DNA of 34,254 bases from an uncultured Oscillospiraceae bacterium (GTDB lineage: Bacteria > Bacillota > Clostridia > Oscillospirales > Oscillospiraceae): the NCBI GenBank assembly GCA_944385675.1, contig CALWYD010000058.1, forward strand, positions 1-34,254, written 5' to 3'. The notes beneath the pieces were generated by a model. The model was not told the origin of the DNA. It ran no database searches and saw only the letters and a program-made list of their open reading frames with translations. The position numbers and the translations under genes are program-made. Shown in pieces: positions 10,863 through 32,176 of the stretch. Position 1 is the stretch's first letter. Each line of letters begins with the position of its first letter.

Positions 10863-10884
10863 CCCAGATCCCAGTGTATTTTCT

Positions 10885-11080
10885 ATCCCCCGCTCTGGCC
10901 GTGTGGACCCGTTTAAAACCTGCACGTGTTGGCAGGTGGGTCGCCTCCACAGCGTTTTACTGCTTCCAACTTCCAGCTGACCTCAAAGGGGGGCCGGGAG
11001 GCCTGCAAGCCACGCTGTGAGGGTGCGTCCCGTTTAAGAGATGTGGGTTTAAAAGGACCCATCACGCACCGAGCAGGAAA
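10885..11080 (-). ncRNA. ssrS: 6S RNA
   Basis: This non-coding stretch folds like 6S RNA, the RNA polymerase sigma-A holoenzyme regulator that mimics an open promoter. On the minus strand a closing stem pairs GCTCGGTGCGTGATGGGTCC (11074-11055) with GGGTCCACACGGCCAGAGC (10910-10892), allowing a few wobble pairs. A large internal bubble with ATCTCTTAAACGGG and GGTTTTAAACGGG follows, then an inner stem CACAGCGT (11019-11012) with ACGCTGTG (10955-10948) and an apical arm containing GGCTTGCAGGCCTCCC. Length, bubble and arm sequences resemble clostridial 6S RNAs as I remember them. A terminator follows; the 5' end is estimated from a TAAAAT element at the end of the upstream gene. Exact ends are uncertain. 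Confidence 0.78.
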
Positions 11081-11093
11081 CACACCGGAGATT

Positions 11094-27509: not shown

Positions 27510-27704
27510 ATGTCCAGCAGCAAGAAGACTGTGGTTCCCAGCGCTCGTGAGGCTATGAACAAGTTCAAGATGGAGGCCGCCAACGAGGTGGGCGTTTCCC
27601 TGAAGCAGGGTTATAACGGCGATCTGACCAGCAAGCAGGCCGGCTCTGTGGGCGGCCAGATGGTCAAAAAGATGATCGAGGCCTACGAGAACGGCATGAA
27701 GTAA
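27510..27704 (+). CDS. Small acid-soluble spore protein, alpha/beta type
   Basis: This 64-residue protein is an alpha/beta SASP, which coats and protects DNA in the dormant spore and is degraded at germination. It has the conserved first helix REAMNKFKMEAANEVGV, the LKQGYNGDLTSKQAGSVGG linker and the second helix GQMVKKMIEAYE. The germination-protease site should lie at the MEAANE segment, a mild variant of the usual E-I/F-A-S-E. AAAGGAG lies nine bases before the ATG. The codon choice is strongly biased, as expected of an abundant protein. A very elaborate hairpin follows the stop. Expression should need a forespore sigma factor, but no clear sigma-G promoter could be assigned. Confidence 0.94.
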   Translation: MSSSKKTVVPSAREAMNKFKMEAANEVGVSLKQGYNGDLTSKQAGSVGGQMVKKMIEAYENGMK

Positions 27705-29615: not shown

Positions 29616-30155
29616 ATGGTACACATTCTTCTGGCCCCCGGTTTTGAAGAGGCCGAGGCTCTGGTTCCCGCCGACCTGCTCCGGCGGGCCGGTATTGAAA
29701 CTGCCCTGACTGCCCTGGAAGAGAAACAGGTCACCGGAAGTCACGGTATTACTGTGCTGGCCGACCGGGACGTGACCCAGGTGGATCTGACCCACACGGA
29801 AATGATCATACTGCCTGGTGGAACCAGGGGAGTCAATTATTTGAAGGCACACCCAGCCGTGTCCTCCCTTGTCCAGGAAGCTGCAGATCGGGACATTCCT
29901 CTGGCCGCCATCTGTGCAGCTCCTACTCTGCTGGGCTCTATGGGTCTGCTCAAAGGGAAAAAGGCGGTCTGCTACCCCGGGATGGAGGATCAGCTGGTGG
30001 GTGCCCAAGTGGAGTTGGGGGCCAAGGTGGTGCGGGACGGCCTGGTGGTTACAGCTCAGGCTGCGGGAAGCTCTATCCAGTTTGGCCTGGCGCTGGTGGA
30101 ATATTTGGCCGGCCCGGAGAAGGCTGCGGAGGTTCGCCATGCCATCCATGATTGA
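29616..30155 (+). CDS. DJ-1/PfpI family protein
   Basis: This 179-residue protein is of the DJ-1/ThiJ/YajL group (glyoxalase/deglycase-like cysteine proteins). The reactive nucleophile elbow is visible as LAAICAAPTLL, with Cys near residue 95, and the conserved early Glu in GFEEAEALVPAD; TAQAAGSSIQFGLALVE near the C-terminus completes the family pattern. AAGGAGG precedes the ATG. Its last 17 bases overlap the start of the following formyl-tetrahydrofolate cyclo-ligase gene, so the two are coupled. Whether it acts as a methylglyoxal detoxifier or has another role is not evident. Confidence 0.92.
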   Translation: MVHILLAPGFEEAEALVPADLLRRAGIETALTALEEKQVTGSHGITVLADRDVTQVDLTHTEMIILPGGTRGVNYLKAHPAVSSLVQEAADRDIPLAAICAAPTLLGSMGLLKGKKAVCYPGMEDQLVGAQVELGAKVVRDGLVVTAQAAGSSIQFGLALVEYLAGPEKAAEVRHAIHD

Positions 30156-30717
30156 TCAAGAGAAAAAGGAATTGCGCCGCCGGATACGCCAGCAGCTTTC
30201 TCAGCTGCCCCCTCACCAGGTCCAGCTAGAAGATGACGCCATGTTTGCCCGCTTCCTCTCCCTGCCCCAAGTGGAACGGGCCCAGGTTATTTTCGCCTTC
30301 TGGGGTATCCCCGGCCGTGAGCCGGAAACCGGCCGTCTAGTGGAGGAACTGACCCGCCGGGGCAAACGGGTAGGACTACCCCGTATGCTCCCCGAGCACC
30401 GGATGGAGGTGCGGCTATATGACCCCCATATTCCTTTGCGCAGCGTCTCCTTCGGGATTCTAGAGCCGGGCGAGGATTGTCCGCTTATTCCCCCGGAAGA
30501 AGTGGATCTGGCCCTGGTTCCTGCCGTGTGTTATGACCGGCAGGGATACCGGTTAGGTTTTGGCGGCGGATATTATGACCGGTGGCTGGAACAGTTCTTC
30601 GGGGAACGTGTGGGGCTTTGCCGTTCCTGTCTGCTGCAGTCCAAAGTGCCTGTCCAGGACCATGACAGCCGGGTAAACATCCTTATCACGGAGACCGACT
30701 GCCTGTCCCTGTGTTGA
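30139..30717 (+). CDS. 5-formyltetrahydrofolate cyclo-ligase
   Basis: This protein of about 192 residues converts 5-formyl-THF to 5,10-methenyl-THF using ATP, recycling the storage folate. It has KKELRRRIRQQL at its start, IFAFWGIPGREPET, PEEVDLALVPAV and the family signature RLGFGGGYYDRW near residues 135-146. It starts at 30139 because GCGGAGG ends six bases before it; an ATG three codons later is the alternative. The gene overlaps the upstream DJ-1 stop by 17 bases in another frame. A terminator hairpin on the opposite strand starts four bases beyond the stop. Confidence 0.93.
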   Translation: MPSMIDQEKKELRRRIRQQLSQLPPHQVQLEDDAMFARFLSLPQVERAQVIFAFWGIPGREPETGRLVEELTRRGKRVGLPRMLPEHRMEVRLYDPHIPLRSVSFGILEPGEDCPLIPPEEVDLALVPAVCYDRQGYRLGFGGGYYDRWLEQFFGERVGLCRSCLLQSKVPVQDHDSRVNILITETDCLSLC

Positions 30718-30720
30718 CAG

Positions 30721-30746
30721 GGAAAAGGCGGGGCTTGCGCCCCGCC
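30721..30746 (-). terminator. Terminator of the Cys-rich small gene
   Basis: GGCGGGGC-GCAA-GCCCCGCC (30746-30727) on the minus strand is followed by TTTTCC. On the plus strand the same hairpin is not followed by T's, so it chiefly ends the small minus-strand gene 30764-30937. Confidence 0.78.
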
Positions 30747-30763
30747 CTCGCCGGCTTGTGTAA

Positions 30764-30937
30764 TCAGCAGCAGCCGTCATCACAGCCACAGCCGTTGTTA
30801 CCGCAGCCGCAGCCGTTGTTGCCGCAGCAGCCGCTGTTCCCGTTTCCGCAGCAGCAGCAAAGCAGGATGATCAGCAGGATGATCCACAGGCAGCCGCAGC
30901 CGCCGAAGCCACCGAAGCCGTTGTTTCCGCAACACAT
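30764..30937 (-). CDS. 57-residue Cys/Gly/Asn-rich small protein with hydrophobic core
   Basis: A complete small frame, below common length cutoffs, runs from ATG 30937 to TGA 30764. It has 16 cysteines in 57 residues. Order: MCCGNNGFGGFGGCGC, a hydrophobic stretch LWIILLIILL (residues 17-26), CCCC, then repeats of Gly-Cys and GNNGCGC units, ending DDGCC. AGGTGA lies seven bases upstream, and a strong terminator lies 18 bases downstream. It is the only minus-strand gene among plus-strand neighbours, filling a 335-base gap. It resembles small coat-type proteins of spore formers in composition (YjcZ-like Gly plus hydrophobic block), but I cannot assign it. Metal binding, disulfide cross-linking or a spore-coat role are only guesses. 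Confidence 0.72.
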   Translation of the reverse strand: MCCGNNGFGGFGGCGCLWIILLIILLCCCCGNGNSGCCGNNGCGCGNNGCGCDDGCC

Positions 30938-30959
30938 ATGTTTTCACCTCGCTTATTCT

Positions 30960-30978: not shown

Positions 30979-31051
30979 GATTCTGTATCATTCTATGGTT
31001 TCCCCCTGTCCCCGGTGACAGGGTGGAGAAACTTAATTAGGAGCTGACCCT

Positions 31052-32176
31052 ATGGCACAGGAAAGAAATTCCCGGCAGCACACTTCCAGACACGACTCCC
31101 ATCAGTCTCAACGACGTCCTCGTCGCCGCTCCGTCGGCAGAACTGCCAGCTTTGCGGTACTATACGTGGTGGGTGTCATCAGCATATCCATTCTCTTGGC
31201 CTGTATCGGTTGGATTGCTGCCAACGATGTGCTGGCCCTAAACAAGCCGGAAAAGGAGGTTGTCATCACAATCTCCAGTGAGGACTCCTTCAATGATGTA
31301 GTCAACCGGCTGAAAGAGGAGGGGCTGATTGAGTATAAGCTGCTCTTCAAACTCTTTGCCTCCTTCACCCACGGCAAGGACAAAGTGACTATGGGAACTT
31401 ACACTCTGAACACCGATATGGACTACCGAGCTCTTCTCTCCGGCATGAGTATCAACTCCTCCACCCGGGCGGAGGTGTCTATTACCATTCCAGAGGGCTA
31501 CACCTTGTCCCAAATCTTTCAGCTGCTGGAGGAGAAGGGAGTTGCCACTGTGGAGGATCTCACCCAGGCTGCGGCTGAGCATGATTACGCTTTCTCCTTC
31601 CTCCAGGACATTCCCCTGGGGGAGGCCACCCGTCTGGAGGGTTTCCTTTACCCAGACACCTACACCTTCTATACTCCCCACGACGCTGTCTATGCCATTA
31701 ATAAGCTCTTGGTCAACTTTGACTCCAAATACACCGATGAGCTGCGCCAGAAGGTGGCGGACAGTGGCTACTCTATCCGAGAGATCCTTACCATCGCCTC
31801 CATGATTGAACGGGAAACCGATGGAGAGGATCGGGCCAAAATTGCCTCGGTCATCTACAACCGACTCAACAACCCGGATGCGGGCACTGTGGGCTATCTC
31901 CAGATTGATGCGACCTTGACCTATATTAACGGCGGTAAGGTGCCCACCGCGGCGGATAAGGAGATCGATTCCCCCTATAACACCTATAAGTACAAGGGGC
32001 TACCCCCCGCTCCCATTGCCAACCCAGGCCTGGAAGCCATTGAGGCCGCCTTGGAACCGGAGGACACCGGCTACTACTATTATGTCCTGGGAGATGACAG
32101 CAAGCACCACTTCTTCAAGACTTATGAGGAAATGCAGTCCTTCATGTCCACTCAGGAGCTGTATCAAAACGGGTAA
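31052..32176 (+). CDS. mltG: Endolytic transglycosylase MltG
   Basis: This 374-residue protein cleaves nascent peptidoglycan strands and sets glycan length. It has a basic head (RRPRRRSVGRT), one membrane anchor (AVLYVVGVISISILLACIGW, about residues 35-54), a LysM-like subdomain (about 70-140) and the YceG catalytic domain. The catalytic Glu253 is in ASMIERETDG; LEGFLYPDTYTF and PYNTYKYKGLPPAPIANPG are signature stretches. GGAGC lies upstream of the ATG. The gene is followed by a U32 gene, as in Bacillus (yrrL with yrrN-yrrO nearby). Confidence 0.95.
   Translation: MAQERNSRQHTSRHDSHQSQRRPRRRSVGRTASFAVLYVVGVISISILLACIGWIAANDVLALNKPEKEVVITISSEDSFNDVVNRLKEEGLIEYKLLFKLFASFTHGKDKVTMGTYTLNTDMDYRALLSGMSINSSTRAEVSITIPEGYTLSQIFQLLEEKGVATVEDLTQAAAEHDYAFSFLQDIPLGEATRLEGFLYPDTYTFYTPHDAVYAINKLLVNFDSKYTDELRQKVADSGYSIREILTIASMIERETDGEDRAKIASVIYNRLNNPDAGTVGYLQIDATLTYINGGKVPTAADKEIDSPYNTYKYKGLPPAPIANPGLEAIEAALEPEDTGYYYYVLGDDSKHHFFKTYEEMQSFMSTQELYQNG

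Follow-up and report, generated by a model that had tools for sequence, protein, structure and literature searches.

The window analysed here, a stretch of 34,254 nucleotides from an uncultured Oscillospiraceae bacterium, carries on its minus strand a short, solitary frame very rich in cysteine, and the question is whether this frame is a gene and, if so, what a peptide of such composition does for its host. The frame (30764-30937) has 57 codons ahead of the stop; of the encoded residues, 16 are Cys, 17 Gly and 8 Asn, and its translation, MCCGNNGFGGFGGCGCLWIILLIILLCCCCGNGNSGCCGNNGCGCGNNGCGCDDGCC followed by the stop, is without Lys, Arg and His. An earlier note on this DNA had described a complete short gene with a Shine-Dalgarno sequence, a terminator and 16 Cys in 57 residues, all of which can be seen in the sequence, and its placement of the gene alone on the minus strand between a folate gene and a cell-wall gene also holds, the neighbours being those for 5-formyltetrahydrofolate cyclo-ligase (5-FCL, TIGR02727) and the endolytic transglycosylase MltG (TIGR00247). 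The features of the locus are listed in Table 1. Terminator-like hairpins were seen by eye 3' of the stop codons of relatives too; the hairpin at 30749-30724, with a U-run just four long, was absent from the list of a simple terminator scan. A comparison of 20,472 overlapping stop-free stretches, each 40-57 residues long, puts the peptide first in cysteine density (0.28), and the next distinct stretch reaches 0.19, in agreement with the earlier view that it lies beyond chance. An open frame alone is little proof here, because the antisense of such DNA is mostly open too (of 94 coding sequences, 78 have antisense frame 1 open and 84 have frame 2 open, and none has frame 3 open). The earlier note had made its case depend on conservation of the reading frame in close relatives; this was examined, and the frame is conserved. 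Since the protein, the locus and the promoter are conserved among relatives, 30764-30937 is, on comparative sequence evidence, a real conserved gene.

Table 1 Features of the peptide locus in the window, with the details or evidence for each
Feature	Coordinates	Strand	Details and evidence
5-FCL gene	30148..30717	+	Convergent neighbour; conserved class A neighbourhood
Terminator-like hairpin, GC-rich, short U-run, after the stop	30724..30749	-	-26.7 kcal/mol, z -3.8
C-terminal tail of variable length, Gly-Cys and Asn-Asn-Gly-Cys repeats (codons 31-57 and stop)	30764..30847	-	Alignment; DNA repeats
57-codon gene for the Cys/Gly/Asn-rich peptide	30764..30937	-	Stop codon 30766-30764; translation, second copy, synteny, alignment, pN/pS, genus search
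Conserved core, codons 15-30, GCLWIILLIILLCCCC	30848..30895	-	Alignments; low-confidence helix 15-29
Shine-Dalgarno AGGTG	30945..30949	-	30949-30945, 7 nt ahead of ATG
Leader stem-loop	30960..30978	-	Part of the 51-nt leader, shortly after the predicted transcription start; weak covariation, class A alignment
Predicted sigma-K-type promoter	30989..31016	-	ACC 31016-31014, 16 nt, CATAGAATG 30997-30989
mltG	31052..32176	+	Divergent neighbour; conserved class A neighbourhood

The conservation of the gene can be followed from the host outwards. A second copy lies in the same genome (contig C1:47738-47884), and a search with the single peptide as query found matches in 33 of 60 genomes, the own genome included (E up to 0.01). 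Using a 57-row profile (A2), which includes members from part of the 61 genus genomes, 60 of these 61, the own genome among them, match, including all 31 of good quality; two copies were counted by hand with this profile in 50 genomes, three in two, one in eight and none in one. All 23 genomes first met in the A2 genus search (G1042-G1064) match as well. The copies split into two classes (31 loci). At the 13 class A loci the peptide gene adjoins an oppositely oriented mltG; 12 of these loci have 5-FCL at the far flank, as in the window, and at L028 mltG alone was seen within the stretch examined. Class B comprises 15 loci that adjoin a gene for an SLH protein, an identity confirmed at one locus, and 11 of them have in the stretch an rnfC-like gene, named by eye. 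Three loci (L015, L025 and L029) show neither neighbourhood. The class A arrangement extends to further genera of the family, with both neighbours at L060-L062, L064, L068 and L071 and with mltG at L074; beside a 28-residue member in another family of the order (L107), the flanking frames resemble 5-FCL and a DJ-1-type protein in their first residues. Pooled pN/pS is 0.48 in class A (66 pairs from 12 loci, not counting L007, whose peptide is identical to that of L005) and 0.33 in class B (105 pairs), and the window gene gives 0.22-0.68 when compared with 11 class A same-locus relatives. These substitution patterns are those of purifying selection on the protein.

When the relatives were aligned, M1, W18, I19, L26, C29, G31, G51 and C52 were invariant in the 26 sequences compared, and W18 was invariant across 57. 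The CCCC tetrad is represented among these 26 by one invariant Cys, C29, and the N-terminal Cys/Asn/Gly part and the tail are variable. The Trp-led hydrophobic run has 8-14 residues, the Trp included; in 79 of 84 members its length is 9-11, so that it is mostly short for a membrane-spanning helix. AlphaFold, run on 26 sequences, predicted a helix only at residues 15-29, with a mean pLDDT of 51.9; because a model of such low confidence gives meaningless matches, the fold search was left out and no fold is claimed. The 84 distinct members are 28-59 residues long. The tail is missing from the shortest of them, 15 members of 28-32 residues that stop just past the core, and the Cys tail can therefore be regarded as optional in the family; one 33-residue member has a Cys tail, and one 34-residue member a short tail. 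The mean composition of the 84 members is Gly 0.23, Cys 0.23, Asn 0.16, Ile 0.11 and Leu 0.07, with Lys and Arg absent from 79, His from all 84 and Pro from 82. A two-module relative was also observed in Claveliimonas, which we take to belong to the Lachnospiraceae, and in Lachnoclostridium (L034 2932-3168 (+), L032 and L033), in which the core C-[IL]-WIILLLCCCGG occurs twice within one protein of 78-79 residues.

The promoter region indicates when the gene may be expressed. A pattern was first read from the upstream regions (AC, about 16 nt, CATAnnnTR) and was tested as AC-N15-18-CATA-N2-3-T[AG] at no more than 120 nt from the start. This sigma-K-type pattern occurs at 43 of 53 distinct loci, a set that includes the loci from which it was read, compared with a mean of 0.96 and a maximum of 4 in 100 dinucleotide shuffles. 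When the pattern was fixed beforehand, it was found at 26 of 34 held-out loci, compared with a mean of 0.66 and a maximum of 3 in 200 shuffles; the held-out set started from 40 loci, of which 35 have the peptide frame (not L100, L105, L106, L109 and L111), leaving 34 distinct upstream DNAs. The pattern is missing at 10 of the 53 and 8 of the 34 loci, several of which carry AATA or TATA where others have CATA, and at L018 and L031 it was scored at a second, closer position, a better placed one being visible too. It also precedes all three genes of the two-module kind, those from Claveliimonas monacensis, Claveliimonas bilis and Lachnoclostridium sp. An118, two of which are nearly identical. Genome-wide, the specificity is weak, with 23 matches to a close version of the pattern versus 16 for the reversed control. 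Other promoter types were rejected: the sigma-E pattern was found at 0 of 53 loci and 1 of 34 held-out loci, the sigma-A pattern at none in either set, and the sigma-F/G pattern at 0 of 53 and 1 of 34. In a study of C. difficile (PMC3789822), sigma-K elements are given as AC at -35 with a -10 such as CATATAAT, and sigma-E promoters as having ATA at -35 and -10 elements similar to those of sigma-K. The promoter pattern makes it very likely that the gene is switched on late in spore formation, and we infer that it would depend on sigma-K.

Downstream of the predicted start, GAGGTGAA in the Shine-Dalgarno region is invariant in the 13 class A leaders. The window leader folds at -10.4 kcal/mol (z -2.67), and 68 distinct leaders were compared, 50 of them at least 40 nt long, with a median z of -2.13 and 26 at z of -2 or lower. 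Covariation in the leader is weak (two-sided changes in 2 of 5 pairs in alignment A4 and in 3 of 4 pairs in A3, with consensus energies of -2.09 and -0.18), and the idea of a strong shared RNA element was dropped for this reason. The stem-loop is kept as a supporting feature and is plausibly a 5'-proximal stabilising hairpin. Two further observations concern the promoter pattern. Small Cys-rich genes occur as tandem pairs at 12 loci (L132, L133, L135, L137, L143, L146, L147, L150, L151, L155, L156 and L158), and by hand count the sigma-K-type pattern precedes the first gene at 9 of the 12 (not L135, L146 and L150) and the second gene at none. At L052, in the own genome (C81 near 22971), a Cys-containing protein of 281 residues is encoded downstream of the same pattern; searches of Pfam at E up to 0.01 and of NCBIfam at E up to 0.001 gave no match for this protein, and it is possibly a further late sporulation protein.

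The genes that a sporulating host requires were then compared with the occurrence of the peptide. Of 60 genomes, the own among them, 53 have SpoIVA, and so do all 39 of good quality. In the own genome, SpoIVA and SigG score over their cut-offs, and SigE and SpoIIGA are partial, each with the named family as its best match (E 1.7e-64 and 1.7e-43) below the curated cut-offs. In the window itself, a gene for an alpha/beta SASP lies 3 kb from the peptide gene (27510-27704, plus strand; PF00269, E 2.9e-29), for which NCBIfam gave no match at E up to 0.001. In the class sample, where profile A2 matches 98 of 391 genomes including the own, SpoIVA is present in 90 of 97 peptide-positive genomes (own left out) versus 189 of about 293 negatives; with 189 negatives having SpoIVA and 105 lacking it (104 without the own genome), the Fisher p is 1e-8, kinship ignored. 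The seven peptide-positive genomes without SpoIVA are G473, G481, G510, G527, G531, G557 and G644, three of which are less than 80% complete. Relatives of the peptide thus concentrate in genomes with SpoIVA, and their occurrence tracks sporulation genes. Profile A1, which is narrower, finds 146 positives among the 394 genomes of the order sample, own included; four of the positives belong to the genus. In the phylum sample, 7 of 249 match, including the own genome and one family member, and the remaining matches, five in number, are weak, at E 7.8e-5 to 6.1e-4.

The gene for sigma-K itself appears to be interrupted in this host. A 260-bit match to the SigK model in the own genome was rejected as SigK, since it is the SigE gene beside spoIIGA, and SigK-like pieces lie elsewhere. 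The own draft genome has sigK matches in two pieces, both on contig C81, which cover model positions 4-73 and 64-114 and lie about 11.6 kb apart; in this draft, sigK beyond model position ~114 was not found, and the downstream piece meets a stop there. At this locus (L162: 11903-12295, 190-342 and 297-1964, all on the minus strand), a skin-like stretch of 11.6 kb apparently separates the two parts of sigK. The downstream piece is accompanied by a frame for a large serine recombinase, and the frames between the pieces resemble, by eye, formate dehydrogenase and molybdenum-cofactor genes. A prophage-like element in sigK is described for B. subtilis and C. difficile in PMC5025042. Across the genus, the SigK-type model matches in 61 of 61 genomes at E up to 1e-30, many of these matches being SigE, and by hand count a one-piece match over the cut-off starting at model position 3-9 occurs in 32 of 61. 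We read the latter as SigK rather than SigE, and on this reading the genus has SigK. Some other genomes have matches that start or end near model positions 64-67 or 108-127, which suggests that sigK is broken near these positions across the genus, at two insertion sites. Two minor observations concern SigE. The SigE gene next to spoIIGA in the own genome (C1:52131-52769, L159) has one TGA inside the HMM match, possibly an assembly error. In the own genome, 4.2 kb separate this SigE gene from the class B copy of the peptide gene; the corresponding distance to such a match is about 2 kb in G011, and in G007 the two are not close.

Sequence searches with the window peptide returned nothing in Pfam, NCBIfam or PDB. 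The 57 members gave weak scattered matches only, the best being ODV-E18 in Pfam (E 0.0084), TatA/E in NCBIfam (E 0.017) and a PDB entry at E 0.63, which we read as noise from the hydrophobic stretch. Judged by these searches, the peptide family is new to Pfam and NCBIfam, and no curated family searched describes its members. In the literature, the family is undescribed among the matches listed, as far as title and start of abstract go, with annotated Clostridia genomes and subscription papers outside the scope, and it is possible that the family has been annotated earlier under some label. Such proteins may carry an annotation label taken from silkworm chorion proteins ('chorion class high-cysteine'); a literature search with this label found one unrelated silkworm paper only.

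What, then, could this peptide do? We consider it probable that it is a late mother-cell peptide of the spore coat or exosporium, in which the core docks and the Cys tails cross-link by disulfides. A late mother-cell promoter, very high Cys content, almost no charge and a short hydrophobic core all fit a structural peptide of this kind. The earlier note had proposed a spore-coat cross-linker, a metal sink or a membrane-attached peptide; the first of these has gained the sigma-K-type promoter, the co-occurrence with SpoIVA and the host sporulation genes and is now favoured, and the other two stand as its rivals. In the proposed mechanism, tiny, nearly uncharged proteins of one family would be produced by the mother cell at a late stage of sporulation, under a sigma-K promoter. 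The Trp-led core, with mostly 9-11 residues of the Ile/Leu/Val type, would let the copies dock on one another and on a membrane or a hydrophobic surface of the coat. The flexible Gly/Asn-rich tails would present many Cys for intermolecular disulfides at spore maturation or on contact with oxygen, and an insoluble layer of the outer coat or exosporium would result. The spore location, the docking and the disulfide cross-linking are what we infer from these features. Counting against a coat role, the recognised neighbours are housekeeping or cell-surface genes and not coat genes.

Compared with known systems, the peptide has several likenesses and differences. First, CotY, CotZ and ExsY of the Bacillus crust and exosporium are likewise Cys-rich and belong to the outermost spore layers, but they are much larger than a 57-residue peptide, and the peptide members match no such family in Pfam or NCBIfam. 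CotY and CotZ are reported to self-assemble by disulfide cross-linking (PMC6101409). Second, CdeC and CdeM, which shape the C. difficile exosporium, are Cys-rich, regulated by sigma-K and proposed to be disulfide cross-linkers, and CdeC self-assembles in a redox-dependent manner into lamella-like structures, according to PMC9542656 and PMC6101409. In contrast, they have 405 and 161 residues with ~9% Cys (PMC6101409), compared with 57 residues and 28% here, and by this description they are set apart from the peptide. CdeC and CdeM are also reported in PMC6101409 to be absent from the Lachnospiraceae, whereas two-module relatives of the peptide occur in Claveliimonas.

A bolder form of the coat reading is rather doubtful, namely that the peptide is an air-set, trypsin-proof spore sealant, kept reduced in the anoxic mother cell and polymerised through its thiols by oxygen into a covalent layer on release. 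If it were true, the family would be a widespread component of anaerobe spore coats that is invisible to proteomics, and members with the core only and with core plus tail would tune the degree of cross-linking. Since 79 of 84 members are without Lys and Arg, tryptic proteomics would probably miss them, and the small size together with this composition would tend to hide the family from gene callers as well. To our knowledge, little is known of the coat proteins of commensal anaerobes. Coat proteins are poorly shared between spore-formers, and few of those of B. subtilis are conserved in C. difficile, as reported in PMC3789822. Here, a candidate family that has no model in Pfam or NCBIfam shows a promoter pattern of the late mother-cell type and occurs in a quarter of the class sample, and with it, what seals the spores of obligate anaerobes becomes testable.

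The rival that survives best, though in our judgement unlikely, is a small membrane peptide resembling YjcZ, placed in the outer forespore or mother-cell membrane, whose core would be the functional part and whose Cys tail would be accessory to remodelling, permeability or mother-cell lysis. The small sporulation proteins of the YjcZ_2 family (PF09680) of Bacillus are tiny, with a Gly-rich start followed by a hydrophobic stretch, and are in this respect like the peptide. We keep this rival alive because the core is better conserved than the tail, standing nearly alone in the members of 28-32 residues, and the low-confidence AlphaFold helix coincides with it. An earlier assignment of yjcZ to the sigma-K regulon of B. 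subtilis, reported in PMC517825, counts for this rival, as does the description of YjcZ-family proteins as membrane-associated in the sORFdb paper (PMC11796252). Against it, the hydrophobic run is short for a bilayer-spanning helix in those same 79 of 84 members, and the enrichment in Cys is left unexplained. Membership in YjcZ_2 was rejected, as neither the window peptide nor any of the 57 members matches the HMM at E up to 10; PF09680 was found in 0 of 101 genomes sampled from the phylum, with the B. subtilis control positive.

Less likely still is a metal buffer of the mother cell or spore, in which clustered CxC and CC thiols would bind Zn, Cu or Fe in the manner of a metallothionein and load or protect the spore. 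The dense GCGC and CGC motifs and the mean Cys fraction over the 84 members speak for it, metallothioneins themselves having very high Cys content and CxC motifs, and anaerobic hosts keep thiols reduced before release. However, it is the hydrophobic core that is conserved best and not the Cys tail, few Cys are kept in the 15 shortest members, and the 57 members together match 13 Pfam families at E up to 10, none of them a metallothionein family. The named neighbours (5-FCL, MltG, the SLH protein and the rnfC-like gene) are not metal-storage genes either. As for the idea that the frame is open by chance, in GC-rich DNA facing an element of the plus strand, the mostly open antisense frames and the repetitive DNA would allow it, but it is scarcely credible and is ruled out by conservation, as the protein, the two syntenic loci, the promoter and the leader hairpin all recur in relatives and pN/pS is below 1. 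An RNA gene at the peptide locus was rejected as well; at gathering score, Rfam matches the window only once, with a 6S RNA (RF00013, 67.9 bits) about 20 kb off, at 10883-11082 on the minus strand.
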